DNA of 64,000 bases, taken from NCBI GenBank assembly GCA_963966185.1, contig CAWZYM010000243.1, positions 32,501 through 96,500 on the forward strand, given 5' to 3'. The translations under genes and the position numbers were made by a program. The notes below the pieces were generated by a model that saw only the letters and a list, made by a program, of their open reading frames with translations, made no database searches and was not told the origin of the DNA. This DNA comes from Rhabditoides inermis (Eukaryota; Nematoda; Chromadorea; Rhabditida; Rhabditidae). Positions 4,306 to 61,922 of the stretch are shown piece after piece (position 1 is the stretch's first letter; every line of letters begins with the position of its first letter).

Positions 4306-4463
4306 TGGAATGGAACATTTATCCGGTATCGCATTATGTGATCATGTATACGACGAGTATAATAGCGTTGTATGCTCTCAATGTATTGTGAAGGTTCTGC
4401 TTGAAAAAGTGCTGGTACGGTCTGTGTGATTAAATGATGGAACAATTCTAATTCATGAGAGAG
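4306..4463 (-). mobile_element. LINE-B, 3' terminal part, split off by Gypsy1
   Basis: Minus-strand continuation of LINE-B across the Gypsy1 insertion. Joined to 16479 onward with one AGAG copy, the frame stays open across the junction. It ends with the family 3' signature (TGATCACATAATGCG then CCGGATAAATGTT) and a short CCATT-type tail. Positions 4350-4382 repeat 33 bp found again at 16680-16712. Confidence 0.75.
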
Positions 4464-15865: not shown

Positions 15866-15883
15866 CGAACTCGCTGCTATCAG
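15866..15883 (-). other. Candidate Gypsy1 primer-binding site
   Basis: Directly inside the 5' LTR the minus strand reads CTGATAGCAGCGAGTTCGG. The GAGTTCGG part resembles a tRNA T-arm complement, but the site lacks the canonical TGG start, so the tRNA primer is unclear. Confidence 0.35.
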
Positions 15884-40100: not shown

Positions 40101-43100
40101 TGGAAGCAGACTGGGGAACGAGGTGTCTGGGTAGGAGAGATAAGAAAGAGAGAGCGGAGGAAGGATGTGATAGGGTGGAGAAGGCTGTGAATTGGCTGTC
40201 CGAGACTGTGTTGATCAGCATGGAAGCAGACTGGGGAACGAGGTGTCTGGGTAGGAGAGATAAGAAAGAGAGAGCGGAGGAAGGATGTGATAGGGTGGAG
40301 AAGGCTGTGAATTGGCTGTCCGAGACTGTGTTGGTCCGCATGGAAGCAGACTGGGGAACGAGGCGTCTAGGTAGGAGAGATAAGAAAGAGAGAGGGGAGG
40401 AAGGATGTGATAGGGTGAAGAAGGCTGTGAATTGGCTGTCCGAGACTGTGTTGATCAGCATGGAAGCAGACTGGGGAACGAGGCGTCTGGGTAGGAGAGA
40501 CATAAAAAGAGAGGGAAGGAAGGTTGCGGTAGGGTGGAAAAGGCTGTGCATTGGCTGTCCGAGACTGTGTTGATCAGCATGGAAGCAGACTGGGGAACGA
40601 GGCGTCTGGGTAGGAGAGACATAAAAAGAGAGGGAAGGAAGGTTGCGGTAGGGTGGAGAAGGCTGTGCATTGGCTGTCCGAGACTGTGTTGGTCCGCATG
40701 GAAGCAGACTGGGGAACGAGGCGTCTGGGTAGGAGAGATAAGAAAGAAAGAGGGGAGGAAGGATGTGATAGGGTGGAGAAGGCTGTGAATTGGCTGTCCG
40801 AGACTGTGTTGATTAGCATGGAAGCAGACTGGGGAACGAGGTGTCTGGGTAGGAGAGATAAGAAAGAGAGAGCGGAGGAAGGATGTGATAGGGTGGAGAA
40901 GGCTGTGAATTGGCTGTCCGAGACTATGTTGATCAGCATGGAAGCAGACTGGGGAACGAGGTGTCTGGGTAGGAGAGATAAGAAAGAGAGAGGGGAGTAA
41001 GGATGTGATAGGGTGGAGAAGGCTGTGAATTGGCTGTCCGAGACTGTGTTGGTCCGCATGGAAGCAGACTGGGGAACGAGGCGTCTGGGTAGGAGAGATA
41101 AGAAAGAAAGAGGGGAGGAAGGATGTGATAGGGTGGAGAAGGCTGTGAATTGGCTGTCCGAGACTGTGTTGATTAGCATGGAAGCAGACTGGGGAACGAG
41201 GTGTCTGGGTAGGAGAGATAAGAAAGAGAGAGCGGAGGAAGGATGTGATAGGGTGGAGAAGGCTGTGAATTGGCTGTCCGAGACTGTGTTGGTCCGCATG
41301 GAAGCAGACTGGGGAACGAGGCGTCTGGGTAGGAGAGATAAGAAAGAGAGAGGGGAGTAAGGATGTGATAGGGTGGAGAAGGCTGTGAATTGGCTGTCCG
41401 AGACTGTGTTGGTCCGCATGGAAGCAGACTGGGGAACGAGGCGTCTGGGTAGGAGAGACATAAAAAAGAGAGAGGGGAGGAAGGCTGTGAATTGGTTGTC
41501 CGAGACTGTGTTGGTCAGCATGGAAGCAGACTGGGGAACGAGGCGTCTGGGTAGGAGAGATAAGAAAGAGAGAGGGGAGGAAGGATGTGATAGGGTGGAG
41601 AAGGCTGTGAATTGGCTGTCCGAGACTGTGTTGATCAGCATGGAAGCAGACTGGGGAACGAGGCGTCTGGGTAGGAGAGATAAGAAAGAGAGAGGGGAGG
41701 AAGGATGTGATAGGGTGGAGAAGGCTGTGAATTGGCTGTCCAAGACTGTGTTGGTCAGCATGGAAGCAGACTGGGGAACGAGGCGTCTGGGTAGGAGAGA
41801 TAAGAAAGAAAGAGGGGAGGAAGGATGTGATAGGGTGGAGAAGGCTGTGAATTGGCTGTCCGAGACTGTGTTGGTCCGCATGGAAGCAGACTGGGGAACG
41901 AGGCGTCTGGGTATGAGAGATAAGAAAGAGAGAGGGGAGGAAGGATGTGATAGGGTGGAGAAGGCTGAGAATTGGCTGTCCGAGACTGTGTTGATCAGCA
42001 TGGAAGCAGACTGGGGAACGAGGTGTCTGGGTAGGAGAGATAAGAAAGAGAGAGCGGAGGAAGGATGTGATAGGGTGGAGAAGGCTCTGAACTGGCTGTC
42101 CGAGACTGTGTTGGTCCGCATGGAAGCAGACTGGGGAACGAGGCGTCTGGGTAGGAGAGACATAGAAAGAGAGAGCGGAGGAAGGATGTGATAGGGTGGA
42201 GAAGGCTGTGAATTGGCTGTCCGAGACTGTGTTGATTAGCATGGAAGCAGACTGGGGAACGAGGTGTCTGGGTAGGAGAGATAAGAAAGAGAGAGCGGAG
42301 GAAGGATGTGATAGGGTGGAGAAGGCTGTGAATTGGCTGTCCGAGACTGTGTTGATCAGCATGGAAGCAGACTGGGGAACGAGGTGTCTGGGTAGGAGAG
42401 ATAAGAAAGAGAGAGCGGAGGAAGGATGTGATAGGGTGGAGAAGGCTGTGAATTGGCTGTCCGAGACTGTGTTGGTCCGCATGGAAGCAGACTGGGGAAC
42501 GAGGCGTCTGGGTAGGAGAGATAAGAAAGAGAGAGCGGAGGAAGGATGTGATAGGGTGGAGAAGGCTCTGAATTGGCTGTCCGAGACTGTGTTGGTCCGC
42601 ATGGAAGCAGACTGGGGAACGAGGCGTCTGGGTAGGAGAGACATAGAAAGAGAGAGCGGAGGAAGGATGTGATAGGGTGGAGAAGGCTGTGAATTGGCTG
42701 TCCGAGACTGTGTTGATTAGCATGGAAGCAGACTGGGGAACGAGGTGTCTGGGTAGGAGAGATAAGAAAGAGAGAGCGGAGGAAGGATGTGATAGGGTGG
42801 AGAAGGCTGTGAATTGGCTGTCCGAGACTGTGTTGATCAGCATGGAAGCAGACTGGGGAACGAGGTGTCTGGGTAGGAGAGATAAGAAAGAGAGAGCGGA
42901 GGAAGAATGTGATAGGGTGGAGAAGGCTGTGAATTGGCTGCCCGAGACTGTGTTGATCAGCATGGAAGCAGACTGGGGAACGAGGCGTCTAGGTAGGAGA
43001 GATAAGAAAGAGAGAGGGGAGGAAGAATGCGATAGGGAGGAGACGGCTGTGAATTGGCTGTCCGAGACTGTGTGGATACGCATGGAAGCAGACTGGGGAA

Positions 43101-45145
43101 CGAGGTGTCTGGGTAGGAGAGATAAGAAAGAGAGAGCGGAGGAAGGATGTGATAGGGTGGAGAAGGCTGTGAATTGGCTGTCCGAGACTGTGTGGATACG
43201 CATGGAAGCAGACTGGGAAACGAGGCGTCTGGGTAGGAGAGACATAAAAAGAGAGGGAAGGGAGGATGCGATAGGGTGGAGAAGGCTGTGAATTGGCTGT
43301 CCGAGACTGTGTGGATACGCATGGAAGCAGACTGGGAAACGAGGCGTCTGGGTAGGAGAGACATAAAAAGAGAGGGAAGGGAGGATGTGATAGGGTGAAG
43401 AAGGCTGTGAATTGGCTGTCCGAGACTGTGTGGATACGCATGGAAGCAGACTGGGGAATGAGGCGTCTGGGTAGGAGAGACATAAAAAGAGAGGGAAGGG
43501 AGGATGCGATAGGGTGGAGAAGGCTGTGAATTGGCTGTCCCAGACTGTGTTGATCAGCATGGAAGCAGACTGGGGAACGAGGCGTCTGGGTAGGAGAGAC
43601 ATAAAAAGAGAGGGAAGGGAGGATGCGATAGGGTGGAGAAGGCTGTGAATTGGCTGTCCGAGACTGTGTGGATACGCATGGAAGCAGACTGGGGGACGAG
43701 GCGTCTGGGTAGGAGAGACATAAAAAGAGAGGGAAGGGAGGATGCGATAGGGTGAAGAAGGCTGTGAATTGGCTGTCCGAGACTGTGTGAATACGCATGG
43801 TAGCAGACTGGGCAACGAGGCGTCTGGGTAGGAGAGACATAAAAAGAGAGGGAAGGGAGATGCGATAGGGTGGAGAAGGCTGTGAATTGGCTGTCCGAGA
43901 CTGTGTGGATACGCATGGAAGCAGACTGGGGAACGAGGCGTCCGGGTAGGAGAGACATAAAAAGAGAGGGAAGGGAGGATGCGATAGGGTGGAGAAGGCT
44001 GTGAATTGGCTGTCCGAGACTGTGTTGATCAGCATGGAAGCAGACTGGGCAACGAGGCGTCTGGGTAGGAGAGACATAAAAAGAGAGGGAAGGGAGGATG
44101 CGATAGGGTGGAGAAGGCTGTGAATTGGCTGTCCCAGACTGTGTTGATCAGCATGGTAGCAGACTGGGCAACGAGGCGTCTGGGTAGGAGAGACATAAAA
44201 AGAGAGGGAAGGGAGATGCGATAGGGTGGAGAAGGCTGTGAATTGGCTGTCCGAGACTGTGTGGATACGCATGGAAGCAGACTGGGGAACGAGGCGTCTG
44301 GGTAGGAGAGACATAAAAAGAGAGGGAAGAGAGGATGCGATAGGGTGGAGAAGGCTGTGAATTGGCTGTCCGAGACTGTGTTGATCAGCATGGAAGCAGA
44401 CTGGGCAACGAGGCGTCTGGGTAGGAGAGACATAAAAAGAGAGGGAAGGGAGGATGCGATAGGGTGGAGAAGGCTGTGAATTGGCTGTCCGAGACTGTGT
44501 TGATCAGCATGGAAGCAGACTGGGCAACGAGGCGTCTGGGTAGGAGAGACATAAAAAGAGAGGGAAGGGAGGATGCGATAGGGTGGAGAAGGCTGTGAAT
44601 TGGCTGTCCGAGACTGTGTTGATCAGCATGGAAGCAGACTGGGCAACGAGGCGTCTGGGTCTGGGTAGGAGAAACATGGATGTGATAGGGAGGATGTGAT
44701 AGGGTGGAGAAGGCTGTGAATTGGCTGTCCGAGACTGTGTCGATCAGCATGGAAGCAGACTGGGGAACGAGCCGTCTGGGTAGGAGAGACATAAAAAGAG
44801 AGGGAAGGGAGGATGCGATAGGGTGGAGAAAGCTGTGAATTGGCAGTCCGAGACTGTTTCGATCAGCATGGAAGCAGACTGGGGAAAGAGGCGTCTGGGT
44901 AGGAGAGATAAGAAAGAGAGAGGGGAGGAAGGATGTGATAGGGTGAAGAAGGCTGTGAATTGGCTGTCCGAGACTGTGTGGATACGCATGAAAGCAGACT
45001 GGGGAACGAGGCGTCTGGGTAGGAGAGACATAAAAAAGAGAGGGAAGGGAGGATGCGATAGGGTGGAGAAGGCTGTGAATTGGCTGTCCGGGACTGTGTT
45101 GATCAGCATGGAAGCAGGCTGTAGGACGAGATAGCTTGATAGGAG
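28107..45145. repeat. 120-bp satellite array, about 17 kb and roughly 142 copies
   Basis: Tandem unit of 120 bp, e.g. TGTCCGAGACTGTGTTGATC followed by AGCATGGAAGCAGACTGGGG. Two monomer classes occur: a common GATAAGAAAGAGAGAG(C/G)GGAG form of 120 bp and a GACATAAAAAGAGAGGGAAG form of 119 bp. Pairs of the 119-bp form mark the ends of higher-order blocks (near 28700-28800, 29790-29900, 30960-31080, 32290-32400, 32760-32880, 34200-34320, 35640-35760, 37555-37680, 40535-40660). Block lengths are multiples of 120 minus about 2: 1079, 1198, 1318, 478, 1438, 1438, 1918 and 2981. The right end (43200-45145) is more diverged. Both strands stay open for hundreds of codons only because the period is a multiple of three. 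Confidence 0.97.
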
Positions 45146-46244
45146 AGATGCAGAGAGGGAGTAGAGAGTAAAACTCTTGAATCAGTTAGCCGGGATATTT
45201 AGCTAATCAGGCATCCTCTCTTCATGCACACTCCCAAAGTCACACACGGTCAGATCCCGCCCAGCCAGGTCCCACCTACTCTACACTCCACTATATGTAG
45301 TTTAATTCAAATCAACATGAATGTATTTTTTTGATTATGAAGACAGAAATGGCTCAGTAACAAAAAAACCACGTAAAACAAACGCAATAAAAAATCACCA
45401 ACAACATCGCACTGACATCAGCAAATCACAAAAAAGAAACAAAATTCTACATACAAAATCAATTTCTCGAAAAAAACACTCCCTAAATGTAGAGTCTATA
45501 CAACAGGTGATGATAGTCCTATGCGGGACGCTTGTTCTTCCTCCTCTAGCCGCTATCCCTTCAGCTCGTACAAAACGAGAGACGCTCTAGCAGCCAGTCG
45601 ATCCGCCTCCCTCTCTCCACTCACCTCGCGCACCTGTAACACGCATGTATATACACTGATTCTCTCAATTCCAGCTCAGCCTTCCTTTTCACTACCAAAT
45701 GACAACGTCCGCCCCCCCCCCCCCAAAAGACAGACGCTACTTTGTTGCAACGCGCAATGCGAAATTGCACGTTAGCTTTGCCGCCCAACTTTGCTACTGC
45801 GATAGAGCCATTTCCGATTCCAGACAAACAGTTATTACGAATTTATTATGCACATGTCTAAAGGTAGCGTCGAAAGTATGCGAGTGCGTCGCCGAGCCGA
45901 GGGTGCGTCACAGATCACCGTAACTTCTTGTCGCACTATCTCTCTATTGATCGCTCTTCCCCTTTTCTCTGTACCCTTTCACACTCCACCCAATCACATC
46001 CTCCTCTCTTCTCTTCTCTTCTCTCTCTCTCCCTCTCTTTCTCTCTTTCCTCTCTCATCACCGTTGCATCATTCATGTGCAGATAGTTCTCGCCGTTTCC
46101 CTCCTTGCACAGCGACTCATAGTGCACTGAAATATAGAAATTATTGGACTTACTACAGACAACAGAACTCAGTAAAGCGAACAACATGTCAATTTGCCAA
46201 TCACACTAGGCAGGCCCCGCTCCCACTCCCGTCTATCGGCTCAC
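45146..46244. other. Unassigned DNA right of the satellite
   Basis: No clear gene. TTTAATTCAAATCAACATGAATG at 45299-45321 resembles a minus-strand LINE 3' tail. A poly-C run lies at 45712-45723 and CT-rich DNA at 46005-46055. An exon-like GTGCGCGAG|GTGAGT site near 45625 is too short to call. Confidence 0.4.
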
Positions 46245-48696: not shown

Positions 48697-48984
48697 TAGG
48701 GTATCCCCCATTTTCACGGTACGGGAATACTGTATGCAGCCGGAGATTAATTTCTGTGAAGATTCATTCATTAATTCCGAAAGGAGTTATAAGCTCTAGA
48801 TCATGGAAAACTCTGCTTGATTAGACTTGCAAATGACCTTCATTTCACTGAAATCAGACCGCCAAGCGCGCGAATTGCGCGGTCGAATGATATCGCTCGG
48901 GCCGATATAGCGGGTAAATGCGACGAAATGTCTGAAAAATATGCGGCGAAATGGTTGCAGTACCGTGAACCGGGGGATACCCTA
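48697..48984. mobile_element. TA-target MITE (MITE4), 288 bp
   Basis: Inverted ends TAGGGTATCCCCC(A/G)(T/G)TTCACGG at 48697 and 48984, flanked by TA at 48695-48696 and 48985-48986. No ORF. The right half (from 48871) reappears at 61923-62036, where the left half is missing. Confidence 0.8.
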
Positions 48985-49914
48985 TAATGCGCGTTCATTC
49001 GTGTCACTCACTTCAATTTCGACCCCCGCCGTCTTCTCAACACTCAACCCCCTCATCACTCGTTACTTTGCCCGCGGAGTATCGGCAAAAACCAGAACTA
49101 GTTAGCAATTAATTGTTTCTGAGTAGTACTATAGCGGCGACGTCAACACGCCATGAACGTGCGAGAACAGCGGGACGCGAAGCACTCGAGACACTCGCCA
49201 TATAAACCCCTCACACACAATAAACATGTCAATGTTGAACCGTCGGAGTGCGTTCTCTTCAATCACACCTCGCGCCCGCTCTCTCTCTCCCTCTCTCCCC
49301 CTCCCCTCTCTCTCCCCTCTCTCCCATCAACCCACTCACATGTACTGCTCTCCGATGACCCCGCACCAGTGGCGTCTCCAGTCGGGGGTGGGCCGAGCGA
49401 ACGGCACCGCCACCACCAGCACATCATTCGATGTGAATCGGATGCCCGGCTGGAAATCAAGTAGCATGTCTAATACATATCAAAACAATCCCCACCTTCA
49501 CATAGCGGGAGAGAGAGCGTCGTTCCATGTCCTGCGGATCAGTGAGAACCGTCTGAAATACAATTCCTTGAAATGCGCTTTCGCCTGCCGTCTGTCTATG
49601 CCCACCTCGAGCGCCTTCTCCGCCTCGGCGCGCTTCTTCGCTTCCGCCTGCTCCAACCTCGACAGTCACCTCTCCTCAAACGACGTCTTCAGGAACACTT
49701 CCTGCGACAATATTTTTTTATGTTTGAATAGCATAACCAAAATTACGTATACACCCCCACATCAAAATCAAAACCACCTACCCTGAAGAGATACAGATCG
49801 ACGTTGGCGTCCCAGGACGCTGTGGGGATCGTCCGATCGAAGAAGCCGGCGGACGACGTTGAGACCAGCAAGTAGCTGCAAGCATATTACATCAAGATAA
49901 ACAAAACAAGCGAC
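48871..49914 (-). repeat. Host segment A, copied again at 61923-62967
   Basis: 1044 bp, apparently identical to 61923-62967 (1045 bp) except for one T in a homopolymer (7 T at 49713-49719, 8 T in the right copy). It holds half of MITE4, a 5' LINE-free stretch, CT-rich DNA and four exons of the host gene. It ends exactly at the Gypsy2 LTR. Confidence 0.9.
49340..49875 (-). pseudogene. Left copy of four host-gene exons
   Basis: Same four exons as 62928-62392, with the same in-frame TGA (here 49666-49668 on the minus strand). In this copy the upstream exons are separated from them by the Gypsy2 element. Confidence 0.6.
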
Positions 49915-50560
49915 TGTACGTTCCAGTTAGGTTCTGGTCCGTGTTGGGTGTATTCAAACACACCCCACCAATTGAAACAATTGGAATTAATCACAATAAA
50001 ACACTACGCGCGTTCGCGAAGTAGTGTAATTTGCGTATCACCACACAGTGCGTTCGCAGCTGTGGATAGACAGAGTCAATGATTTGCACGCGTTCGCGTA
50101 CACAAATCAGGTCGTGAAACGACTAGTGATGCGTTCGCATACACTAGCGCTTGATGATTTCAACGAGGCCCACGCGTTCGCGTACAGGCCTCGCTCCTCG
50201 CTCCTCGCTCTTTGCTCCAAAGATAGACGCCGAGTAGGACGCCTCGGTATGTCGCAACCGATAAGGTATAGACAGAGTACCACGGGGATTGATGCAGCAA
50301 TTTATTATCACCACCTCGAAAACACGATTCACGAACAACTGAATAACAACACCCAAAACCACTCTTACGTGGACGATAAGATATCAACACCGTATACAAC
50401 ACAGGCAGTGGCGCGAGATTTAAACATACAAAGGCACTCTAGACAAAATCAATATAACATATGTGCGCGTACCAAAACAACAAGGCTAGCCGAGGCTGCC
50501 AGACTAAATACAAAAACATATGTGTGTCAAATGCAACAAACTACAATCAACGAGTGCGTT
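49915..50560 (-). repeat. Gypsy2 3' LTR (right edge approximate)
   Basis: It starts TGTACG on the plus strand, i.e. ends CGTACA on the element strand. The right edge is uncertain because the repeat shared with the other side continues through the pol stop (50590) to 50707. It contains a CCAATTGAAACAATTGG palindrome (49969-49985) and five hairpins (50001-50193). A purine-rich AGTGGGGAGATAAGAGAGAA on the element strand just before about 50556 is a candidate polypurine tract. Confidence 0.75.
50001..50193. repeat. Array of five hairpins with a common GCGTTCGC core
   Basis: Hairpins at 50001-50027, 50044-50064, 50081-50108, 50123-50147 and 50164-50193; start-to-start spacing is 43, 37, 42 and 41 nt. 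The outer stems are perfect but all different: ACACTAC/GTAGTGT, CACAG/CTGTG, GATTTG/CAAATC, CTAGTG/CACTAG, CGAGGCC/GGCCTCG. Each apex is an inner palindrome around GCGTTCGC (e.g. ACGCGTTCGCGT, ATGCGTTCGCAT). The copy in the right LTR is at 61194-61386. Confidence 0.9.
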
Positions 50561-50589
50561 CTCTCTTATCTCCCCACTCCGGGGTTCAT

Positions 50590-53500
50590 TCACGACTGTC
50601 GTCCATCGCGGCGATAGGGCCGGAAACGCTGCTGGTCCTTGTCTCCCTTGTACTTCCTCTCTTGCTCGCGTCTGAACGGCCTTTCCTTCTCTTCCTTCCT
50701 CTTGTACATGCCGCCTCCCTTCGGTAGCGCGACCTCGCGCGTCTCCACACCGCACCACTTCTCCACCGCTCGGCCGTACTGCTCGCATTGCTGGTTCGAC
50801 AGTTGACCGTATTTCTCCATCCTGGTCTGAGGTCCGAGTACATTGCTGGGGCACTCGACCGCAGTCGTATCGCTCCTCGTCTGCACCTGCCAACAGTGGT
50901 CCACGTGCAGCTGCCTCCCGATCCAGCTCTTGATATCCGTCCACTCCCTCCACAAGTCCTTGTTCGCTCGCTGCTCGACAGTGAGCGGCGGCGGGACAAT
51001 GGTGATCTTCATCTCCAAGGGCGGCTTGTAGTCCACCAAGCCGGACTCCTCCCACCCTCCGGGAATCGGCTCAAGGACGAGTATCGCATGGTCTCCGCGG
51101 CTCATATTTCTCCACTTCTTGTACCCTCCCACCACGGTCTTCTTATCCATCCTGGCCAGCATGTCTGGCACGTACCACACCGGTGGTGGCATCTCCTTCT
51201 GTCGCTTCGCCTTCTCCTCTCCCTTCTCCTTGTTCTTCATAATCTCGTGGTACCGTCTGATCGCTGCCGCCGCCGGAGCAAATCGCTGTCCTCCCTTCCC
51301 AGCGTCCATCTCCAGTTGGATCCCCTCCGTCCGGCCCAACTCGCGGCAGAACTGCAGGTCGAATGCCGATAGCACTCGGTACGCGATGACATAGTCTTCT
51401 TCCTCTGGCTCAGATGCCGTCCACTTCTCGCCTGGGGTATGGTACCAGTCCTCGTATCTCCTTTCATCGCCGTCGCTTTCACCCAACAAAGCCTGCTCCT
51501 TTTCAGCTTCGATCTTGGCATCCTCTTCTTGAAACCGGGAGGAATACCTCTTGTTTCTCAGCTCCTCGTCTCTTTCCTCCCGACCATTCTTGTTGAGCCA
51601 TGCCATACGGTAAATCGTGAGTACCTTAGTCTGGCGAATCGCTGCGGTAGTCCTTGAGTAGAGTGTCCTCGTCGGGCCGTTTCCCTGCCTGGTGAGTTCC
51701 TCGAGGGTGTGCTCGTGCAGCGCCCTCCACGGGTGGTAGGGGTGTACCGACGAATACGAGTCGATCGTCCTGCAAAGATTTTCTTCAATTCTCCTCATTT
51801 TCGCTTCCCCTCCCCTTCTCTTCCTCCTGGTCCCTCCTTCTGCTTCTATCTCTTCCCCACACTCTTTCGGAATGCGCTTCAGACTGTCAAAAGGCACTTG
51901 AATCGCCTCCTCGTTTATCCCTTTCCCTATCCTAGTCACTGTTGCCGACTGCTCCGTGGTTGCAATGACCCGAAACGGACCATCCCACTCGTTCATCATC
52001 TTCGGACATGTCCTTCCTCTCCTCTCCGTAGGGACATATACCAACACCCTTTCACCCACTTTTGGTAGTGCATCTGTTTTTCTTGCCTTCTCGTCGTATC
52101 TCTTCTTCATTCTCTCCCTTTCCTTTTCGTTCTTCTCTCTCACTTCTCGATGTACTATTGCCATTCTCTTGCACATTTCTGTAATGTAGTCATCACAGCT
52201 GAGTAGTACCGCCGGCGGTCTGACTGTGTGTTCTTCTCGTCCCATCCAGTAGGGGTCCCTTCCGTGTAGTATGAAATAGGGACTCTCGCCCGTAGCATCA
52301 TGTGGTGTGATATTGTATGCGTACACACAGTACGGCAGTACCTTGTCCCACTCCAGTGCCCCCACTGTCTTCTTCTTGAGCATGAGTTGCAGTGTTTTGT
52401 TGAACCTCTCTACAAGGCCGTTCTCCCTGGGATTGTATCCTTTTGTCATCTTGTGTTCGATACCGGTTATCTTAACCATCTCCTCCCACACCTTGCACTC
52501 GAACTCCTTGCCTCTGTCGCTGACCACTGTTTTTGGCATCCTCGTACCCTCCGCAATCCATCGGGTCAACATGCACTCCGCTACTGCTTCTGCTGTCTTG
52601 TCAGGAATGGCGTACGCCCCCGCCAGTTTACTGAACTGATCCACCACGCACAACACATACTTGTTTCCGCTGGACGTCACTCCTAGATGCATTACGTCGA
52701 CGTGTACAATCTCGAACGGTTCGCACGTAATATATGGTTTCAGAGGAGGTGTCAATTTTGGTTGTCCATTCACCAATGCACACTTGCCGCATTCGGCTAT
52801 CCATCTTCCCACGTCTTTCTTCATGTTCGGCCAGAAGAATTTCTTCTTTAATCCTTCGACTACCTTTCCTTGATGAAAGTGTCCGGCCCACATCCCCCTG
52901 TGTGCCTCCATCGTCAAGCCCTTTCTCTCTTCTTTTGGCACCACTGTCCTCCCCTCTCCTTCTTCGTTCCACCACGTCAGCTCTCCTTGTGTGACCACAA
53001 AATCGTCCACCGTCACCTTCTTGCCCTCAACGTACATTGATAAGGGTCGTTCCGTATCGTCTTTTCGTATCTCCTCGATCAGTGCTTTCCACTCTCTCTC
53101 TTTTTCCAGGCTCTTCAACCACGCCCCCTTCTTCTCCTCCTCGTTTTGGAGATATACCCTCCCTATTATGGCTTCAGCTCCGCTCACTCCGTGCTGGTCT
53201 GCGCTCACTACCGCACCTCTTGACAATGCGTCTGCAACTGCGTTGGCCTTCCCTGCCACATATCTAATCTCCATTGCATACGTCTGCAGCTCAACTGACC
53301 ATCTCCACAATCTGTCCGAAATGTCCGATTTGAACATCGCAGTCAACGACCTGTGATCTGTATAAACAGTCACCCTTGCTCCCATGACGAATCTCTTGAA
53401 TTGTCTCATCGCCACCACTACTGCCAACGCTTCTAAGTCCGTCACATGGTAGTTCCTCTCTGCCTTCGACAACGCCTTCGAGATGAAGTAAATAGGGTGC

Positions 53501-56358
53501 ATCAGGCCATCATCTCCCTCCTGTGTCAGCACCGCCCCGACACCCTCCTTGCTTGCATCAGTGTAGATGACGAACGGTCGCTCTCCCGACTTAGCTTTCT
53601 CTATATCCGGTTGCATCAGTACTGGTGCCGTCACCATTCTCAATTTAAGTCCCTCAAACGCCTTCTCTTCTCCCTCTCCCCACGTCCATCTCTTCTCCTT
53701 CTTAGTCAACTCGTGCAGTGGTCTCGCTAGTTTCGAGAAACTTCGGATGAATTTTCTGTAGTAGCTTGCCATCCCTAGGAACGTCCTCAGCTCCTTCACG
53801 TTCTTCGGTCTCGAGTATGTTTGTATCTTCTCTACCTTCTTCTTATCTGTGTGTACTCCCAGCTTGTCCACTACATGACCGAGGAACTCGACTTCTTTCT
53901 TCAGGAACACGCACTTGCTCGGTTTGCACATCAGATTAGCCCCCTGCAGCGCCTCCATCACTTGCTCCAGCACTTCATAGTGCCTCTCCAGCTTGTCCGT
54001 CGCCACGATTACGTCGTCTATGTACACCATCACTTCAGATCCAATCAAATGTCCGAGTACTACCTCCATCAACCGTTGGTATGTAGCCGGAGACGTCGAC
54101 AATCCGAACGGCAGTACGTTGAACTCGTGCAACCCCCCTTCAGTAACGAAAGCACTCTTCTCCTTGGTCGTCTTGTCCAGCCGGACTTGCCAGTATCCGC
54201 TATGCATGTCTAGCGTGCTGAACCACTCCTTTCCCTTCAAGTTCTGTAGCATACTGTCGATATGTGGTAGGGGATAGGCGTCCTGCTTAGTCACCTCGTT
54301 AACCCTCCTGTAGTCGACGCAGAATCTTATCGATCCGTCTTTCTTCTTCACAAGCACCACCGGAGACGCCCACGGTGATTTACTCTTCCTGATTATTCCT
54401 CTATCCAGTAGGTCCTGCACGATACCCTTCACCTCTCCCTTCATTGCCATAGGTACCGGTCGTGCCTTCTGTCTAATCGGCACCTGATCTCCCGTATCAA
54501 TCACATGTTCTACCAGGTCGGTCGTGCCTAGTTCCTGTTCCGTTAGGGCGAATGACCCGTTGTATTTCCGAACCAGCTTCTTCAACCGTATCTTCTGCTC
54601 CTCTCCCATCTCCTCATCCATCCCTTCTTTCAGTTTATTCATTATCTTTTCAGAACGCTCCTCTCCATCCTTCGTAATCTCCACTCGTTTCTCCAGCATG
54701 TCTCCATCTCTATTCTTTTCACGCTCTCTTGCCGGCAGTTCCCATTCCTCTGTTGCCCATCTGCCAATCTCCTCTCCTTTGTTCAACGTGATCGGCTCGT
54801 CCGTTCTGTTCACTGCTCGAATCACGCTTTTGTTTTGAACCACCGTACACAGTCCGCTTTCTATTCCCTTGTCCTTCACTGACCATAACACCATATCTCC
54901 TCCTCCTTGTCCTCGCACAGTCAGCTGTCGAACACCTCCAGCGGGTATGTAAACCCGTTCGACCGTCCTGACGGTTGCCTCTTCCGGCAGTGCTTTGGCT
55001 TCGACTTCATCCGTCACTTGAAATCGAAAAGTTCCTCCTGTCGTGAACTGCAGGGTGAGTCCCAGATCACACAAAGCACTAGTTCCCAATATGACCTCGT
55101 CGCTCTGGTTGTCAACCACGTGGAAGGTCACCTTCCTCCACCCCGTCTCCGCATTGCCCATCTTCATGTTCACCGTCACCAGCTCGTTTATCCTCAAGGC
55201 ACTTCCTCCGTATCCCACCAGTCCTCTCCTCATGTCGTCTTCAGTTCTCTTATTCCAGCCATCTCCCTCTTCTACACCTTCTCTTATCTTCTCCCACTTG
55301 TCCTTCGCAATCACTGACGCCTCCGCACCTGAGTCCAAGATTATTGTTATCTTCTTGTTCAGGATGTGCGCCTCCGCCTTGCATCGGATCCCTGTCACCC
55401 TGCCATCCTTCTCCCCTTCCTTGTTGTTTCCTTCCGATCCCATCCGTTCGGTTCCTTGGTTTCCACTGTTCGTTTCTACCTTCTCCACGACCCTTCTCAC
55501 AATCGGATTACGACTCGTACAGTTTCTCGCTATGTGTCCTCTCCCTCCACACTTATTACACGTTATCATCGACATTGGGCCGCCCCCTTGCTTCGGCGTA
55601 TCCCCTGTGCTCGTCGTCGATCCCGGATGCGGTGCACCCTCGCTCTTGTTGCCCGTCTTCTTGGGGCAGTTCATCGTCACATGTCCCACTTCATTGCAAT
55701 TAAAACATCTTCTCAATGTCGTGTTATTGCGCCCTGTCTCCTTCGTTTGTTTCCCTCCTCCGTATGCATTGGACTCCCAAATCATCTTCGCTTGTTCGCT
55801 TTCGAATATCAATTTCTTAATTTTCTCGAACTGGTCTCCCTTCCTCGTTGACATAACTTCCTTGGCAATTTGCAACTTGTCGGGCCATTGTTGGATCTGA
55901 GCCATGACCATGTTTGTCAGATTAGCATCATTTGCCTTGTACTCGTTGTCGTCGTAGGCAATGTGTGCTTGTTTCTCTATCTCCTCAATGTACTTGCTCA
56001 ACTTCTGTTCTTTCAGGGGCACCATGCTCCGCAGTTTAGCTATCGCACGGTATGAGCGCGTCTGCCTATCCTCCGTCAGCCTCGCCTTCAATGCTTCGAA
56101 TACTCCGGCAACGTTGCCCTCGCGAATCTCCCTCGGCAATGTGTCTAGTTTCCCCGTTTCCCTCACTTTTGTTCGCAATATCTCCTTTTGTACCACGTCC
56201 GGCAGACGTCCGTACTTGAATTGGAACAGCACCCAGAACCTTTCCAATCCTTTCACTCCTACATCCTTCTTGATTGGTTCGATCTCGAAATCACTTCCCC
56301 TCAAATCGTATCCGTGCCAGTCATCTCTCCCTCCGTTCGCACCCGCTCTTCTCATCAT
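50590..56358 (-). CDS. pol: Gypsy2 Gag(C-terminal)-Pol polyprotein
   Basis: 1922 codons, intact; the first residues are really internal gag, since LINE2 split the frame at 56350-56356. The order is Gag-like region (1-200), CCHC knuckles CFNCNEVGHVTMNC (218-231) and CNKCGGRGHIARNC (267-280), protease LDSGAEASVI (341-350), RT (about 635-830, catalytic YIDD at 779-782), RNase H (YTDAS with D934, TDHRSL near 1000), integrase zinc finger (H1153, H1160 or H1162, C1190, C1193) and catalytic D1221, D1281, E1317, then a basic linker with VGERVLVY. Residues about 1510-1922 are an extension with no recognised domain. All key residues are present. It copies and integrates the element; the host-gene intron location suggests no strong harm. 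Confidence 0.93.
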   Translation of the reverse strand: MMRRAGANGGRDDWHGYDLRGSDFEIEPIKKDVGVKGLERFWVLFQFKYGRLPDVVQKEILRTKVRETGKLDTLPREIREGNVAGVFEALKARLTEDRQTRSYRAIAKLRSMVPLKEQKLSKYIEEIEKQAHIAYDDNEYKANDANLTNMVMAQIQQWPDKLQIAKEVMSTRKGDQFEKIKKLIFESEQAKMIWESNAYGGGKQTKETGRNNTTLRRCFNCNEVGHVTMNCPKKTGNKSEGAPHPGSTTSTGDTPKQGGGPMSMITCNKCGGRGHIARNCTSRNPIVRRVVEKVETNSGNQGTERMGSEGNNKEGEKDGRVTGIRCKAEAHILNKKITIILDSGAEASVIAKDKWEKIREGVEEGDGWNKRTEDDMRRGLVGYGGSALRINELVTVNMKMGNAETGWRKVTFHVVDNQSDEVILGTSALCDLGLTLQFTTGGTFRFQVTDEVEAKALPEEATVRTVERVYIPAGGVRQLTVRGQGGGDMVLWSVKDKGIESGLCTVVQNKSVIRAVNRTDEPITLNKGEEIGRWATEEWELPAREREKNRDGDMLEKRVEITKDGEERSEKIMNKLKEGMDEEMGEEQKIRLKKLVRKYNGSFALTEQELGTTDLVEHVIDTGDQVPIRQKARPVPMAMKGEVKGIVQDLLDRGIIRKSKSPWASPVVLVKKKDGSIRFCVDYRRVNEVTKQDAYPLPHIDSMLQNLKGKEWFSTLDMHSGYWQVRLDKTTKEKSAFVTEGGLHEFNVLPFGLSTSPATYQRLMEVVLGHLIGSEVMVYIDDVIVATDKLERHYEVLEQVMEALQGANLMCKPSKCVFLKKEVEFLGHVVDKLGVHTDKKKVEKIQTYSRPKNVKELRTFLGMASYYRKFIRSFSKLARPLHELTKKEKRWTWGEGEEKAFEGLKLRMVTAPVLMQPDIEKAKSGERPFVIYTDASKEGVGAVLTQEGDDGLMHPIYFISKALSKAERNYHVTDLEALAVVVAMRQFKRFVMGARVTVYTDHRSLTAMFKSDISDRLWRWSVELQTYAMEIRYVAGKANAVADALSRGAVVSADQHGVSGAEAIIGRVYLQNEEEKKGAWLKSLEKEREWKALIEEIRKDDTERPLSMYVEGKKVTVDDFVVTQGELTWWNEEGEGRTVVPKEERKGLTMEAHRGMWAGHFHQGKVVEGLKKKFFWPNMKKDVGRWIAECGKCALVNGQPKLTPPLKPYITCEPFEIVHVDVMHLGVTSSGNKYVLCVVDQFSKLAGAYAIPDKTAEAVAECMLTRWIAEGTRMPKTVVSDRGKEFECKVWEEMVKITGIEHKMTKGYNPRENGLVERFNKTLQLMLKKKTVGALEWDKVLPYCVYAYNITPHDATGESPYFILHGRDPYWMGREEHTVRPPAVLLSCDDYITEMCKRMAIVHREVREKNEKERERMKKRYDEKARKTDALPKVGERVLVYVPTERRGRTCPKMMNEWDGPFRVIATTEQSATVTRIGKGINEEAIQVPFDSLKRIPKECGEEIEAEGGTRRKRRGGEAKMRRIEENLCRTIDSYSSVHPYHPWRALHEHTLEELTRQGNGPTRTLYSRTTAAIRQTKVLTIYRMAWLNKNGREERDEELRNKRYSSRFQEEDAKIEAEKEQALLGESDGDERRYEDWYHTPGEKWTASEPEEEDYVIAYRVLSAFDLQFCRELGRTEGIQLEMDAGKGGQRFAPAAAAIRRYHEIMKNKEKGEEKAKRQKEMPPPVWYVPDMLARMDKKTVVGGYKKWRNMSRGDHAILVLEPIPGGWEESGLVDYKPPLEMKITIVPPPLTVEQRANKDLWREWTDIKSWIGRQLHVDHCWQVQTRSDTTAVECPSNVLGPQTRMEKYGQLSNQQCEQYGRAVEKWCGVETREVALPKGGGMYKRKEEKERPFRREQERKYKGDKDQQRFRPYRRDGRQS

Positions 56359-56455: not shown

Positions 56456-59263
56456 TTATTCAGTTAGTTCATCAATTAGGGAAAGGAAATCTGAGTATGG
56501 TAGGGAATACATACTGAGCGGAATTTTATTTACAATTTCGAAGCAACGATGAGTGAAGAATGCTTTAGTTGTGTTATTTGTTGCTCTAGAAAGTGGATAG
56601 AGTTTGTCGGAGGCGCCTCGCGTTCGGCTGGATCGCACTTGGAATAGGGCATCGACACAAAGATCAATGTCACCTCGCAACACCTTGTACACGAACATCA
56701 CGTCTCTTTTATCTCTGCGGTGGGAAAGAGACTCTAAACCTAGACGAGCCCGCACGTGGTCACTAGACAAGTGGGAGAAGCCGCATCGATATGCTAGACG
56801 AGTTAGAAACAATGATTGGACAGATTCAAGCGTATCCTTGTCCACTTGGTAGTATGGCGAGTAAATCTCAGTGGCATATTCAAGAATAGAGCGGACATAT
56901 ATAGTGTAGGCTTGTGTGAGAACCTTCTCGTTCCGGGTGCGCAATGTGAAAAATAGAAAGTTGATTTTTTGGTTGGCCTTTTTGGCAATTGAATTGATAT
57001 GCACCCTGAACATCAGGTCTTCACACACAGTCACTCCCAGATCGGGATAGCAAGAAGGAGAGGGGACAGGGGTACCATGCAGAATGTAGGAAAATCGCGG
57101 GTTACGTTTGCCAATGTGGAGAATAGCACACTTGGAAGCACTAACAGACAACTGCCATTTGTGAGTCCACGACTCAACCTCCTTGAGGGCAGAAAGAAGA
57201 GGGGCATTTGTCGTATTGCAATCAAATATGGACAATATCTTCACATCATCGGCGAACATAAACAATTGGCAATTAGGAGGCATGCAATCTGGCAAGTCAT
57301 TTATGAACATAAGAAAGAGAAGAGGGCCTAGTACAGAGCCTTGCGGCACTCCTGAGAGCACGAGTTCGAATGCGCTCTCCTGGCCCTCGACCTCGACACA
57401 CTGCACACGATCAGATAGCCATGCAGATAGCCAGCGATGCAGAAAGCCACTGATTCCGTAGCTGCCAACCTTGGTTAGCAGCTTGGGAATGGACACGGAA
57501 TCGAAAGCTTTTGCAAAATCAATATAGGCTACATCCACACACTTGCCTTGGCTTTCAGCCGTTGTTAGCTGGGACATGAACAGCAGTAGTTGCGCAGTGG
57601 TGCTTCGTTTTTCACGAAAGCCCCACTGAGCGTCAGATAGCAGTCTGTTACGGCTAAGAAAGGAAGAAATCTTGCGTTTTACCATTCGTTCCATGCATTT
57701 TCCAAGAGAAGAAGTGAGACTGATTGGACGATAATTGCTTGGTTCACACTTTTTCCCTTTCTTGAAGATGGGCACAACACAAGCAGTTCTCCACTGACTG
57801 GGTATTTCACCTGTCAGCATAGATTGAGAGAAAATAAGCGATAGTGGGAATGCAATGGTGGTGGCAACATGCTTGATGAAAAAGGATGGGACGCCTTCTG
57901 GTGTGCGGTTCACCTTGGGTTGAAGGGCGAGTAGTGTTTTCTCGACCATCCAAGGTGAAAAGATAACTGTGGAAAGTGAGGCCTGAGTGCGCGCTTCACA
58001 ATCCGGATCGCATCCGTCGTCGGTGATAAACACTGACTTGAACTGATCGGAGAGCATTGCGGCCTTAGCAGAGGGAGTGTCAGCCACCTTCGAACCACAC
58101 ACCAAAGAAGGAACAGGCACATGCGAGCGGGAGTTCTTCTTCATGAAAGCGAAGAATGATTTTCTGTCATGCACAAATTTTCGCTCCTGTTTAACTCGTT
58201 CACGGCGGTGGATTTTTTCAATTCTCTTCACAACGGCTTTGTAGCGAGACGAGTTTTTCTCTCCCGCCCAGATGGATTTTTTCAGCCGGAACAAACGAGA
58301 AATCTGCCGTGAATGCGTTTTGCGAGGAGTGAAAACGGGGACACAAACATCGATGACATTTTGAAGAATAGAGACAAATTTGTCATAGATTTGTTGGGTT
58401 GTTAGCACATGCGGTTTTAGAACATTTAGCCAATCAATGGATGACAGTATTGATTGTGCTCGGTGATAGTCCCCTCGTCTGTAAGCGATCTTTCGATCCG
58501 CAGTCGAGAGCGAGGGGGGCACATCACTTTGCACAGAAAACAAAACATTGGAGTGATCGGACATTCCACACGATACGCTCACGTCACAAACAAAATCGAT
58601 GCGGCTGGAGCTTGAGAGAACGAGATCGAGGATTGATTTGTCACGTGTGGGCTCATCCACGTGTTGAGTCATACCAAAAGAAACCGAGAGAGATAATAAA
58701 CGTTGGCATTGCGCGCACTTGGAGACGAGGTTAGACCAATCGATGTGAGGAGCATTGAAGTCACCTGATACCACTGTTGGGTTCGGTGAAGTTGCGATCA
58801 AACCGGCGAGACGCTCCATCAGAGGGGCAAATGATCTGGAATGTTGGTTGTGGTACACAGAAACATATCTAAAGGGGCGAGGGGTGCGAATGTCAAGACA
58901 AATATATTCTAGGTCAGAATCTGGTTCACTACACTCATGCAGTGTAATAGGAATGTTGTGCTTGGCAAATATGACAATTCCTCCTCCACGAGTGGGGGCG
59001 GAACGATCTCGCCGGAAAACTTGAAAGAGACCATGGGAAATGAAAGAATCTGTGATAGACGAATCGAACCACGTTTCACATATAGACAGAATATCAATGT
59101 TAGAAAGTTCATAGAAATCTCTGTATACCGGAATCCGATTGCGGAGAGAGCGGGCGTTGGTCTGCGCGAACTTCAGACAGCGACGGCGGGCGACTGCTGC
59201 ATCGGCTGCGGCGGCTGCTGGCTGGGCGGGCTGGTCGGCGCGCGCGGCTGTGAACGCGTCCAC
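56456..59263 (-). CDS. LINE2 ORF2: endonuclease and reverse transcriptase
   Basis: 935 codons. The N-terminal apurinic-type endonuclease has N36 (TNARSL), E63 (CETWFD), D168 and N170 (SGDFNAPHIDW) and the C-terminal SDH (D236, H237). RT is at about 490-760: NYRPISLTSSLGKCMERM, YIDFAKAFDSVS (A motif), SGVPQGSVLGPLLFLMFIND (B motif), FADDVKIL (catalytic, 670-673). No RNase H domain and no C-terminal zinc knuckle are seen. The architecture and motifs fit the jockey/CR1 group. It nicks target DNA and copies the LINE RNA at the nick. Every catalytic residue named is present. It overlaps the end of ORF1 in another frame, so translation probably depends on reinitiation or coupling. Confidence 0.93.
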   Translation of the reverse strand: MDAFTAARADQPAQPAAAAADAAVARRRCLKFAQTNARSLRNRIPVYRDFYELSNIDILSICETWFDSSITDSFISHGLFQVFRRDRSAPTRGGGIVIFAKHNIPITLHECSEPDSDLEYICLDIRTPRPFRYVSVYHNQHSRSFAPLMERLAGLIATSPNPTVVSGDFNAPHIDWSNLVSKCAQCQRLLSLSVSFGMTQHVDEPTRDKSILDLVLSSSSRIDFVCDVSVSCGMSDHSNVLFSVQSDVPPSLSTADRKIAYRRGDYHRAQSILSSIDWLNVLKPHVLTTQQIYDKFVSILQNVIDVCVPVFTPRKTHSRQISRLFRLKKSIWAGEKNSSRYKAVVKRIEKIHRRERVKQERKFVHDRKSFFAFMKKNSRSHVPVPSLVCGSKVADTPSAKAAMLSDQFKSVFITDDGCDPDCEARTQASLSTVIFSPWMVEKTLLALQPKVNRTPEGVPSFFIKHVATTIAFPLSLIFSQSMLTGEIPSQWRTACVVPIFKKGKKCEPSNYRPISLTSSLGKCMERMVKRKISSFLSRNRLLSDAQWGFREKRSTTAQLLLFMSQLTTAESQGKCVDVAYIDFAKAFDSVSIPKLLTKVGSYGISGFLHRWLSAWLSDRVQCVEVEGQESAFELVLSGVPQGSVLGPLLFLMFINDLPDCMPPNCQLFMFADDVKILSIFDCNTTNAPLLSALKEVESWTHKWQLSVSASKCAILHIGKRNPRFSYILHGTPVPSPSCYPDLGVTVCEDLMFRVHINSIAKKANQKINFLFFTLRTRNEKVLTQAYTIYVRSILEYATEIYSPYYQVDKDTLESVQSLFLTRLAYRCGFSHLSSDHVRARLGLESLSHRRDKRDVMFVYKVLRGDIDLCVDALFQVRSSRTRGASDKLYPLSRATNNTTKAFFTHRCFEIVNKIPLSMYSLPYSDFLSLIDELTE

Positions 59264-60036
59264 GGCTGCGGCGTCTCCAGGCGCACCACCTTGAAGTTGC
59301 GCACGGTGTAGATGCGGGCTCCGGCCTTGTCGTTCTCCGAGATGGCTTGTTTCCAGGCTTGGCGGTAGACGATGCTCTCCGCGGCAGACATGTCGAGGCG
59401 GGCAGAGGTCGGCATGTTCTCCTGGCGGCTCCTCTCGTTGAAGTTCTTGAGAAACGCGAACGTCTGAGCCTCCGAGGAGAACTTGACGATCAGCGGGCGA
59501 GGTGAACGCCCATCGGGTCGAGGAAGTCCGAGGCGAAAAACCTCGACGGCGGGGGCAAGCTGCAGTTCCTCGAGGGTGGAGGCGAAGTACTCGGAGTCAT
59601 CGGGGTTCTCCGGCAGGTTTTTGATGAAAACGCGCTTGCGGCGCTCGGCGTCCTCAGCCTGGTCCTTGACACCCTGCTGCACCTGCAGCACGAGGCGGGC
59701 GTTGTCGGCGGCAGAAGGCATTCCACGGGCGGCCACACTAGAGTACAGCGGCTTGTCGGTGGAGAGAATCTTGTCCAGCTTGAGAGAGATGTCGGCTAGC
59801 TTCTGTTCAAGCACAGAATACTGCTTCTGGAGCTGCTCAATCTGGATGGAGAGAGGCACAAACATCTTGTCGAAGCTCTCCTTGAGGGCTTTGTCGATCA
59901 GCTCCACTATACGGTCATCGGTCAACTTGGGAGAAGATGAGAACAGTCCTCCCTTCTTCCTCTTGACTCCTTGTTGGGGGGCAAGCGGGGTAGCAGAGGG
60001 GGTAGCAGAGGATTGCGGCGTCTCGGATGTTGTCAT
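59173..60036 (-). CDS. LINE2 ORF1: RNA-binding coiled-coil protein
   Basis: 287 codons from the first ATG (60036); a GTG six codons upstream also keeps the frame. The basic Ser/Thr/Pro-rich N-terminus is followed by a coiled coil at about 50-95 (IEQLQKQYSVLEQKLADISL), then a globular part with RRKRVFIKNLPENPDD, VFRLGLPRPDG and LIVKFSSEAQTFAFLKNF that resembles the RRM-like core of LINE ORF1 proteins. The Pro/Gln-rich tail is PPSQQPPQPMQQ. ORF1 proteins coat LINE RNA and assist target-primed reverse transcription. LINE-B (near 20580-19745) carries a related, broken version. No CCHC knuckle is seen. Confidence 0.85.
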   Translation of the reverse strand: MTTSETPQSSATPSATPLAPQQGVKRKKGGLFSSSPKLTDDRIVELIDKALKESFDKMFVPLSIQIEQLQKQYSVLEQKLADISLKLDKILSTDKPLYSSVAARGMPSAADNARLVLQVQQGVKDQAEDAERRKRVFIKNLPENPDDSEYFASTLEELQLAPAVEVFRLGLPRPDGRSPRPLIVKFSSEAQTFAFLKNFNERSRQENMPTSARLDMSAAESIVYRQAWKQAISENDKAGARIYTVRNFKVVRLETPQPWTRSQPRAPTSPPSQQPPQPMQQSPAVAV

Positions 60037-60091
60037 TTCCCAGCGACCGCTCACTGGCGAGAAACAGTGGGGAATGAGAAACAGTGGGGAA

Positions 60092-60874
60092 TCTCATCTC
60101 CATACCTGAGCTCGACGTTGTTGGTCTGCTTGTTGTCGTCCTCCTGGTGGGCGATTCCCTCGAACGACCCGTATCCCATCCGAAGACCGGCGCCGTCCCT
60201 TCTGACGTACCCGGGTTCTGCAATTCTCCGTCTCCCTCATCCCCTTCATGGTCTAGCCACCGCCTATCTTCACACTCACTGTCGTTGTTCTCGGCCTCGA
60301 ATGACGCTTCGAGTTCGTCTCGACCGCGCTCTCGTTCCCACCGGTACTTCTCCTTGGCCATAATCTCCTCCAGGAGGGCCCGAGCCTCGTCCCCTCTCAT
60401 GCCTTCGTCCAGGCGAATCTGCAATAGGATCTCGGTAGCTTTCTTTCCTTCATCCCACTCGTCCTTGAACTCCTTCATATTGTTCACACCCTCGTCATTC
60501 ATCCACGTTTGTACCTCCTCCTTCCATTGCTCAGCTGTAATCAAGGCCTGTACCCTTCTGTCTGCCTCTCTGCCATTATTCGCTCCTATCACCTCCATCA
60601 TCTTTATCCACCTTTCTTTGTACTTCATCAGTGTCTCGTACTTCTTCCTCTCCTTTAATCCTTGTTCGGATGTCATCTCGAGTGTCAACCATTCTTCTTC
60701 TACCTCCTCCATTGCCTCACTGATGTTCTTCACCGTCTCCGATATCACCCTGTACACTTCCTCCCTGACTGGCTCGCTTGTCTTATGGTTCTGTCGCAGC
60801 AACCCATCTACCCTCGTTGCCAGCAAGTTGTACTCCTCCCTCTTCTCTCTCATGTTCGCGATTCGTCCATGCAT
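60092..60874 (-). CDS. gag: Gypsy2 Gag N-terminal part, cut off by LINE2
   Basis: About 260 codons from the first ATG (60874) to the LINE2 TSD. It is highly charged and helical, with Glu/Arg/Lys-rich segments (EEVEEEWLTLEMTSEQ, MKYKERWIKMMEVIG), and then an acidic and Thr/Ser-rich linker. After removal of LINE2 the frame continues into 56358 without a stop. It is a structural protein of the virus-like particle. A short upstream ORF of 41 codons (61022-60897) precedes it in the leader. Confidence 0.85.
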
Positions 60875-60896
60875 TTCATTCCTACTCACCAGAAAC

Positions 60897-61091: not shown

Positions 61092-61107
61092 CTGAGTTCG
61101 GCCCCCA
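61092..61107 (-). other. Gypsy2 primer-binding site
   Basis: The element strand reads TGGGGGCCGAACTCAG directly after the 5' LTR. TGG pairs with the tRNA CCA end, and GAAC(T) pairs with a T-loop-like segment, as expected for a tRNA-primed LTR element. The exact tRNA is not identified. Confidence 0.75.
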
Positions 61108-61753
61108 TGTACGTTCCAGTTAGGTTCTGGTCCGTGTTGGGTGTATTCAAACACACCCCACCAATTGAAACAATTGGAATTAATCACAATAAAACACTAC
61201 GCGCGTTCGCGAAGTAGTGTAATTTGCGTATCACCACACAGTGCGTTCGCAGCTGTGGATAGACAGAGTCAATGATTTGCACGCGTTCGCGTACACAAAT
61301 CAGGTCGTGAAACGACTAGTGATGCGTTCGCATACACTAGCGCTTGATGATTTCAACGAGGCCCACGCGTTCGCGTACAGGCCTCGCTCCTCGCTCCTCG
61401 CTCTTTGCTCCAAAGATAGACGCCGAGTAGGACGCCTCGGTATGTCGCAACCGATAAGGTATAGACAGAGTACCACGGGGATTGATGCAGCAATTTATTA
61501 TCACCACCTCGAAAACACGATTCACGAACAACTGAATAACAACACCCAAAACCACTCTTACGTGGACGATAAGATATCAACACCGTATACAACACAGGCA
61601 GTGGCGCGAGATTTAAACATACAAAGGCACTCTAGACAAAATCAATATAACATATGTGCGCGTACCAAAACAACAAGGCTAGCCGAGGCTGCCAGACTAA
61701 ATACAAAAACATATGTGTGTCAAATGCAACAAACTACAATCAACGAGTGCGTT
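61108..61753 (-). repeat. Gypsy2 5' LTR (right edge approximate)
   Basis: Matches 49915-50560 apparently without differences. The five-hairpin array is at 61194-61386. Confidence 0.8.
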
Positions 61754-61922
61754 CTCTCTTATCTCCCCACTCCGGGGTTCATTCACGACTGTCGTCCATC
61801 GCGGCGATAGGGCCGGAAACGCTGCTGGTCCTTGTCTCCCTTGTACTTCCTCTCTTGCTCGCGTCTGAACGGCCTTTCCTTCTCTTCCTTCCTCTTGTAC
61901 CTTCCTCCTTCTCTTCCTTCCT
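61754..61922 (-). repeat. Pol 3' end copy beyond the 5' LTR, plus a 22-bp filler
   Basis: 61754-61900 matches the segment containing the Gypsy2 pol stop and the last 39 codons (50561-50707). This should not lie outside a 5' LTR. A pyrimidine-rich 22-bp filler (61901-61922) then joins host segment A at 61923. Confidence 0.8.

Follow-up and report, generated by a model that had tools for sequence, protein, structure and literature searches.

Five hairpins that display one constant apex on five different stems recur in both long terminal repeats (LTRs) of a retrotransposon of the nematode Rhabditoides inermis, and, judged by the relatives of this element, the array acts like an RNA recognition cassette that is specific to a family and can be swapped. 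We find that pairing is under selection at the RNA level, that the motif on the stems is constant and that motifs are specific to families. All comparisons rest on one genome, of 172.6 Mb. It has SL1-like genes, which score below Rfam's cutoff, were found in none of 14 control genomes and point to a nematode. The element lies in the window, that is, the whole stretch of 64,000 nucleotides analyzed here, and its features are collected in Table 1.

The array and the element that carries it

The window element is a Ty3/Gypsy LTR retrotransposon coded on the minus strand, with LTRs, a primer-binding site (PBS) and an RT-RNase H part that is followed in frame by the integrase. In each LTR, five hairpins stand between an AATAAA and the LTR end, after which comes a tRNA-Pro PBS; because of the AATAAA before it and the PBS after it, the array would lie in U5 and hence in the 5' leader of the RNA. 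A previous sequence-only reading had described five hairpins with a constant apex in the left LTR and the same array in the right one, and both descriptions are borne out by apex counts, shuffles and folding. On the plus strand, GCGTTCGC stands at 50010, 50050, 50090, 50131 and 50174 and is repeated 11193 bp further on in the right LTR. It occurs 12 times in the window compared to 1.47 expected, with 0 of 100 shuffles reaching 12, and within the element exact apices are found in the LTRs only. The strand given for the apex needs correction, since the coding strand is the minus strand and the RNA apex is therefore GCGAACGC. The distance between apices is 40 to 43 nt and not 37 to 43 nt, and the outer stems, said to be perfect, do have lengths of 5 to 7 bp and all differ, with an imperfect lower stem in hairpin 4. 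Most units consist of an inner stem of 3 to 4 bp closed by a GAAC tetraloop, with a bulge of 1 to 2 nt on the 5' side.

When positions 49990 to 50214 were folded as RNA in both orientations, the sense (minus) strand gave a z score of -3.8 and the plus strand one of -2.9, and 0 of 200 shuffles was as stable on either strand. A scan for a 7-mer that recurs at a spacing of 25 to 75 nt with different stems, each at least 5 bp long, on its flanks detected the LTR array and was positive in 0 of 1000 shuffles that approximately preserved dinucleotides; further positives were one site in another 43 kb of the window and 1 of 12 unrelated loci. Genome-wide, apex pairs at array spacing numbered 117, compared to 7 for the reversed control, and among the 100 matches listed, 97 are inside copies of these LTRs and 3 are isolated (C172, C196 and C247). 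An Rfam covariance-model scan of positions 49800 to 50800, at E values up to 5, gave 0 matches, hammerhead ribozymes of retrozymes included.

Table 1. Positions in the window of the Gypsy element's parts and of the hairpins in its 3' LTR
Feature	Position	Strand	Remarks
3' LTR	49915..50708	-	Sense start at 50708; TGTAC...GTACA; 794 bp; from self-comparison and comparison with other copies
5' LTR	61108..61901	-	Hairpin array as in the 3' LTR, shifted by 11193 bp
AATAAA, likely poly(A) signal	50301..50306	-	Array's U5 placement inferred from sequence
Primer-binding site TGGGGGCCGAAC	61096..61107	-	Complement of the tRNA-Pro 3' end
Open frame with CCHC, protease, RT, RNase H, integrase and C-terminal extension	50590..56358	-	Pfam and ORF; protease below Pfam's cutoff
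N-terminal gag piece	60100..60895	-	Separated from the remaining frame by the inserted LINE
Hairpin H1 (first in RNA)	50165..50192	-	Stem GAGGCC/GGCCUC; apex 50174-50181
Hairpin H2	50123..50147	-	Stem CUAGUG/CACUAG; apex 50131-50138
Hairpin H3	50081..50108	-	Stem GAUUUG/CAAAUC; apex 50090-50097
Hairpin H4	50044..50064	-	Stem CACAG/CUGUG; apex 50050-50057
Hairpin H5	50001..50027	-	Stem ACACUAC/GUAGUGU; apex 50010-50017
U5-end hairpin CCAATTG-TTT-CAATTGG	49968..49984	-	Counterpart in B1
U5-end hairpin GGGTGT...ACACCC	49946..49965	-	B1 has a different paired stem here

Covariation and exchange of the array among related elements

A genome-wide query with the array found 29 places, namely, 25 LTRs of the window element's family, A (at 85 to 100%), and four LTRs of a second family, B1 (at 70%). 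With one apex mismatch allowed, five hairpins are present in 22 of the 25 A LTRs, six in one and four in two, and all four B1 LTRs have five exact apices. The six hairpins of L029 go back to the duplication of one unit, and L030 and L031 have four after the deletion of most of one unit. The B1 copy at C114 (L068:2360-4982) is 2.6 kb long, with 664-bp LTRs identical to each other and a PBS for tRNA-Pro; it has no sense frame of more than 92 aa from stop to stop, and its internal repeats are traversed by a 211-aa antisense ORF. Having no longer sense frame, yet identical LTRs and a PBS, this copy must be mobilized in trans.

The LTRs of A and B1 are alike only from inside the first hairpin through the LTR end, with identities of about 65% in the outer stems and about 63% in the spacers, both being approximate because hairpin 4 is misaligned in that comparison. 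Out of 54 informative pair cells, 51 are paired in both families, and 11 of these are changed on both sides; 11 of the 12 doubly changed stem pairs are compensated (binomial tail, 3e-4). The apex is unchanged (40/40 when the comparison is anchored on the apex and 35/40 in the class-identity alignment that misaligns hairpin 4). These compensated changes support the previous proposal that different but paired stems imply selection for structure. Decay of the stems without compensation in relatives had been named as the finding that would speak against it, and between families the reverse is seen, although a few uncompensated changes do occur in single old or solo copies.

The alignment for motif 1 comprises 13 hairpins out of 29 unit windows, one of which was false; the other 15 were left out as near-copies and include the single copies with uncompensated changes, i.e., stem mismatches in L028 H1 and L033 H3 and an altered apex in L033 H1, where the loop is GAAU. 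The GAAC loop is present in 13 of the 13 hairpins aligned, 96.5% of the pair cells pair compared to a shuffled mean of 59%, and the covariation score is 0.998 compared to 0.231 when shuffled, with 0 of 500 shuffles as high. The third and fourth inner pairs vary in step (C-G/U-A and A-U/U-A/G-C), which lends support to the GAAC loop on its short stem as such.

By RT identity, the relatives of A form a ladder with C87, a sister Gypsy family, at 84%, C200, C129, C151 and C93 at about 70%, C252 and C271 at 55% and others at 42% and below; LTRs were read for part of these, with C151 and those at 42% and below left out. No nucleotide match of at least 20 nt at an E value of 0.01 was found between the 3' LTR stretch of C87 and the A LTR. 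At the array position, C87 has six hairpins with a constant GUCUGUGWUAMGCG on six different stems, followed by hairpins that resemble the U5-end pair of A. Since the RT is still 84% identical while the loop motif differs, the array has been recoded. Covariance-model searches of the 3' stretches of four relatives had given 0 matches, and the absence of an array that this suggested was overturned when one of the four was read and found to carry a different motif.

The clearest exchange is seen within a single noncoding family. A query with the U3/R part of B1 gave 11 matches, three of which are LTRs (two at C109 and one at C114:1631681) of a second version, B2. In U3/R, the two versions agree at 346 of 370 columns (94%), the similarity ending about 10 to 15 nt before the first stem, and the pieces covering the internal region are 82 to 94% identical. 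Their U5s do not match, with B1 carrying GCGAACGC five times and B2 carrying GUCUGUG six times on stems of its own. B1 and B2 are one noncoding family with a replaced U5, and the array motifs are shared with elements mobilized in trans, as found for both versions. Because the U5 is replaced as a whole, selection could act on another part of it. In the C87 and B2 hairpins, six each, 76 of 84 cells pair, two B2 loops being one base shorter, and the covariation score is 0.926 compared to 0.327 when shuffled (0 of 500 as high). The B2 rows were taken from copy L098 instead of the solo LTR L097, in which the first hairpin stem is damaged without compensation. When the C87 array was searched for as DNA, it matched the two LTRs of C87, one array at C145 and three B2 LTRs, and a relative at C484 that is 78 to 88% similar to B1 breaks off inside the first hairpin into other sequence. 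Any assignment of an autonomous helper to B1 or B2 is putative: the LTR end of B1 equals that of A (GGAACGTACA), and C87 may not be the helper of B2 because the LTR end of B2 (GTTACA) differs from that of C87 (GTGTACA), so the helper may be an element outside those seen here.

A third motif was found through the PBS. The pattern TGGGGGCCGAAC occurs at 28 places in the genome compared to 0 for the control, and 16 upstream stretches were read, with U5s taken beside the PBS; among them, L077 is without a clear LTR end and L078 resembles host sequence. The hairpins, three in C212, C216 and C268 and two in C252 and C271, consist of two variable stems on either side of a constant internal loop, AGG/GGA (or GGG/GGG); those in the second C268 copy were assigned by eye. 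Five distinct hairpins represent this class, L086 and L088 standing for the near-identical L087, L089, L090 and L091; 61 of 65 cells pair, and the covariation score is 0.508 compared to 0.224 when shuffled (0 of 500 as high). The C268 element (L100:136-2325) has a 730-aa ORF that resembles the gag-protease part of A (24%; E value, 7e-28), with the Pfam protease below the cutoff, and no RT was found in the C268 stretch read. A partly coding element therefore shares its motif with the RT-bearing C252/C271 family. Two PBS copies at C268 are 3.3 kb apart, which suggests tandem copies sharing an LTR. The array scan was negative for the U5s of C200, C93 and C300 (L093), and no array was seen by eye in those of C129 and C293. 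An ATTGATT repeat in C200 was rejected because it looks like a simple repeat, paired elements in the U5s of C200, C93 and C129 (CGYGGACGG and CTGTTGAGGARCAACAG) were not accepted as an array, and C363 (L094), which is not LTR-like, and C293 (L092), which looks deleted, were left out.

Versions of the three motif classes slid out of register were only 19 to 56% paired. The pairing percentages lean toward structure because the alignments were anchored on the motif and the structures came from folds of the same sequences, and the shuffles, which together with the slides served as controls, overstate independence because hairpins within a class share descent. Read on the sense strand, the cells of the three alignments are Watson-Crick in 249 cases, G-U in 24, A-C in 3 and of other kinds in 14. 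Folding set the register of ten G-U cells that close a loop, and leaving out the loop-closing columns reduces the counts to 14 G-U and 3 A-C cells. This excess is in line with selection on the sense RNA and, with related rows, is indicative. Counts of pairs with changes on both sides were not above shuffles for motif 1 (152/500) or the C87/B2 motif (46/500), nor were further pair types for the C87/B2 motif (131/500) or the AGG/GGA class (299/500).

A possible packaging signal and its alternatives

It is probable, in our view, that the array is a multivalent packaging or mobilization signal, with a motif that is read by an element-encoded protein and serves as a family identity tag. Five leader hairpins (range, 4 to 6) would present the same motif, in which a GC stem, mostly bulged on its 5' side, carries a GAAC tetraloop, on stems that are interchangeable. 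An element-encoded protein, most likely Gag, would bind the motif while selecting and packaging genomic RNA, and the presence of several hairpins would make binding cooperative and selective. The other motifs in sister families would make the motif a family identity tag, and nonautonomous elements would reach a partner by carrying a U5 with the motif of that partner. Dimerization, packaging and translation had been listed beforehand as roles for binding at the apex, and we favor mobilization or packaging over generic translation roles because the motif is family specific and exchanged between elements; the position in the leader, the element-encoded reader and packaging as the step concerned are each what we infer from these patterns. 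More tentatively, there could be an identity code in which each autonomous family reads its own U5 motif, families recode and parasites follow by U5 exchange, and recoding would possibly shed parasites. If such a code is true, matched arrays would record which RNA each protein recognizes.

The candidate readers would be Gag or the C-terminal extension. In a comparison of A and C87 by 50-aa blocks, identity is 40 to 61% in the N-terminal gag piece, 62 to 78% in the capsid-like part, 46 to 60% in the nucleocapsid linker and protease, 58 to 94% at the integrase end and 24 to 42% in the C-terminal extension, with the RT at 84%; the fast-evolving parts are the gag N terminus and the C-terminal extension. 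The two zinc knuckles are similar between A and C87 while the motif differs, and the nucleocapsid alone may therefore not be the reader. The last 304 aa of A have at least 35 genome matches at an E value of 1e-5, in A copies, C87 and the families at about 70%, and several of them cover only the LTR-encoded tail; C252 and C271 are not among the matches listed, C271 being weak by tblastn (E value, 2e-4). In A, C87 and C200, this tail has a basic or RGG-like sequence. A PDB sequence search with the C-terminal extension gave no match, and its single-sequence structure model was unusable (mean pLDDT, 42).

The array could instead bind a host RNA-binding protein or tune how the leader RNA is translated, exported or kept stable, for example, as a translational switch or a silencing shelter. 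The stable leader hairpins seen in the folds should hinder scanning, and in the sister as well as three A copies (L016, L019, L025 and L101) the gag ATG is immediately preceded by an AG acceptor-like ...GCAG. Because of this site, spliced-leader trans-splicing could remove the leader from the mRNA. A shared host factor, however, should keep one motif, and motifs here differ between related families of a single genome, while the noncoding family retains the array though it has nothing to translate, and we consider this explanation rather unlikely. A function in genome dimerization, through kissing of the near-palindromic CGCGAACGCG, or in the initiation of reverse transcription, through contact with the primer tRNA, would fit an apex that is nearly self-complementary and located upstream of the PBS, but the palindrome is broken by the two central A residues of GCGAACGC, the loop did not prove self-complementary and the C87/B2 and AGG/GGA motifs are not palindromes. 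Pairing with the tRNA is further argued against because the families compared share the tRNA-Pro PBS yet differ in motif, making this kind of function quite improbable.

Drosophila gypsy carries Su(Hw) sites, and a constant 8-mer repeated at near-regular spacing in an LTR might similarly be bound, as DNA, by a transcription or insulator protein. Flanks that pair are unnecessary for double-stranded sites, however, and here they differ yet stay paired and show the G-U excess on the sense strand, so we give very little credence to such DNA sites. That the array is a functionless by-product of tandem duplication of a ~41-nt unit would agree with the variable unit number (6 in L029 and 4 in L030/L031) but is hardly credible, as neutral duplicates would lose pairing, the A-B1 double changes pair in both families in 11 of 12 cases and covariation is found in three motif classes.

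Known systems and further observations

To our knowledge, the choice of RNA by LTR retrotransposons outside yeast is largely open. The elements amount to a natural mutational scan, in which numerous stems carry one motif, relatives carry others and one nonautonomous family has swapped its cassette; the motif, its copy number and the candidate reader domains are directly testable. LARD, TRIM and BARE-2 are nonautonomous LTR elements. A pair of GACG hairpins in gammaretroviral leaders, reportedly described by Konings in 1992, is located downstream of the PBS. These are likewise leader hairpins with a common loop motif, whereas here 5 to 6 hairpins stand between AATAAA and the PBS, the loop differs between sister families, and GAAC and not the GACG tetraloop was found.

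In the available portions of the reports cited here, retroviruses have their packaging determinants in stem-loops of the 5' leader, to which nucleocapsid binds (PMC5086612), GACG loops in gammaretroviral leaders are linked to packaging and possibly to dimerization (PMC516450) and the noncoding VL30 is packaged into MLV particles (PMC4859993). As with VL30 in that account, B1/B2 is noncoding, has LTRs and a PBS and needs trans mobilization, but its U5 cassette comes in two alternative forms that differ in recognition motif. For RNA viruses, dispersed packaging signals have been proposed, consisting of hairpins with a shared motif, and the hairpin motif for the MS2 coat protein combines features of the apical loop and a 5' bulge (PMC6281560, in part). 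A common recognition motif on hairpins of variable sequence is found here as well, but clustered at one end of the RNA. Ty1 packaging sequences map to the 5' end of the RNA, and Ty1 and Ty3 are LTR retrotransposons like the elements studied here; unlike these, they have no repeated-hairpin array in the descriptions available to us (PMC4974528). A literature search by title and the start of the abstract, which covered few subscription papers and no preprints, returned no report of such arrays and none that unites their repeat number and position with a family-specific motif and a natural cassette swap.

Several other features of the window and the genome were observed. No plain target-site duplication was noticed around the Gypsy element, which is flanked outside its LTRs by a ~1045-bp direct repeat (99.9%; 48871-49914 and 61923-62967); 13 nt separate the right repeat copy from the right LTR match. 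A LINE with endonuclease and RT domains is inserted into the internal region at 56456-60093 and splits the gag part, and close to the start of gag the window copy has a premature stop, absent from three other A copies compared. Elsewhere in the genome, contigs C153 to C155 contain tandem arrays matching the tRNA-Pro 3' end, mostly 1.3 to 2 kb apart. The window also contains a 17-kb satellite of ~120-bp units (28107-45149) and a direct repeat of ~597 bp that is 99.7% identical (4462-5056 and 15882-16478, 11.4 kb apart) and is perhaps another LTR element.
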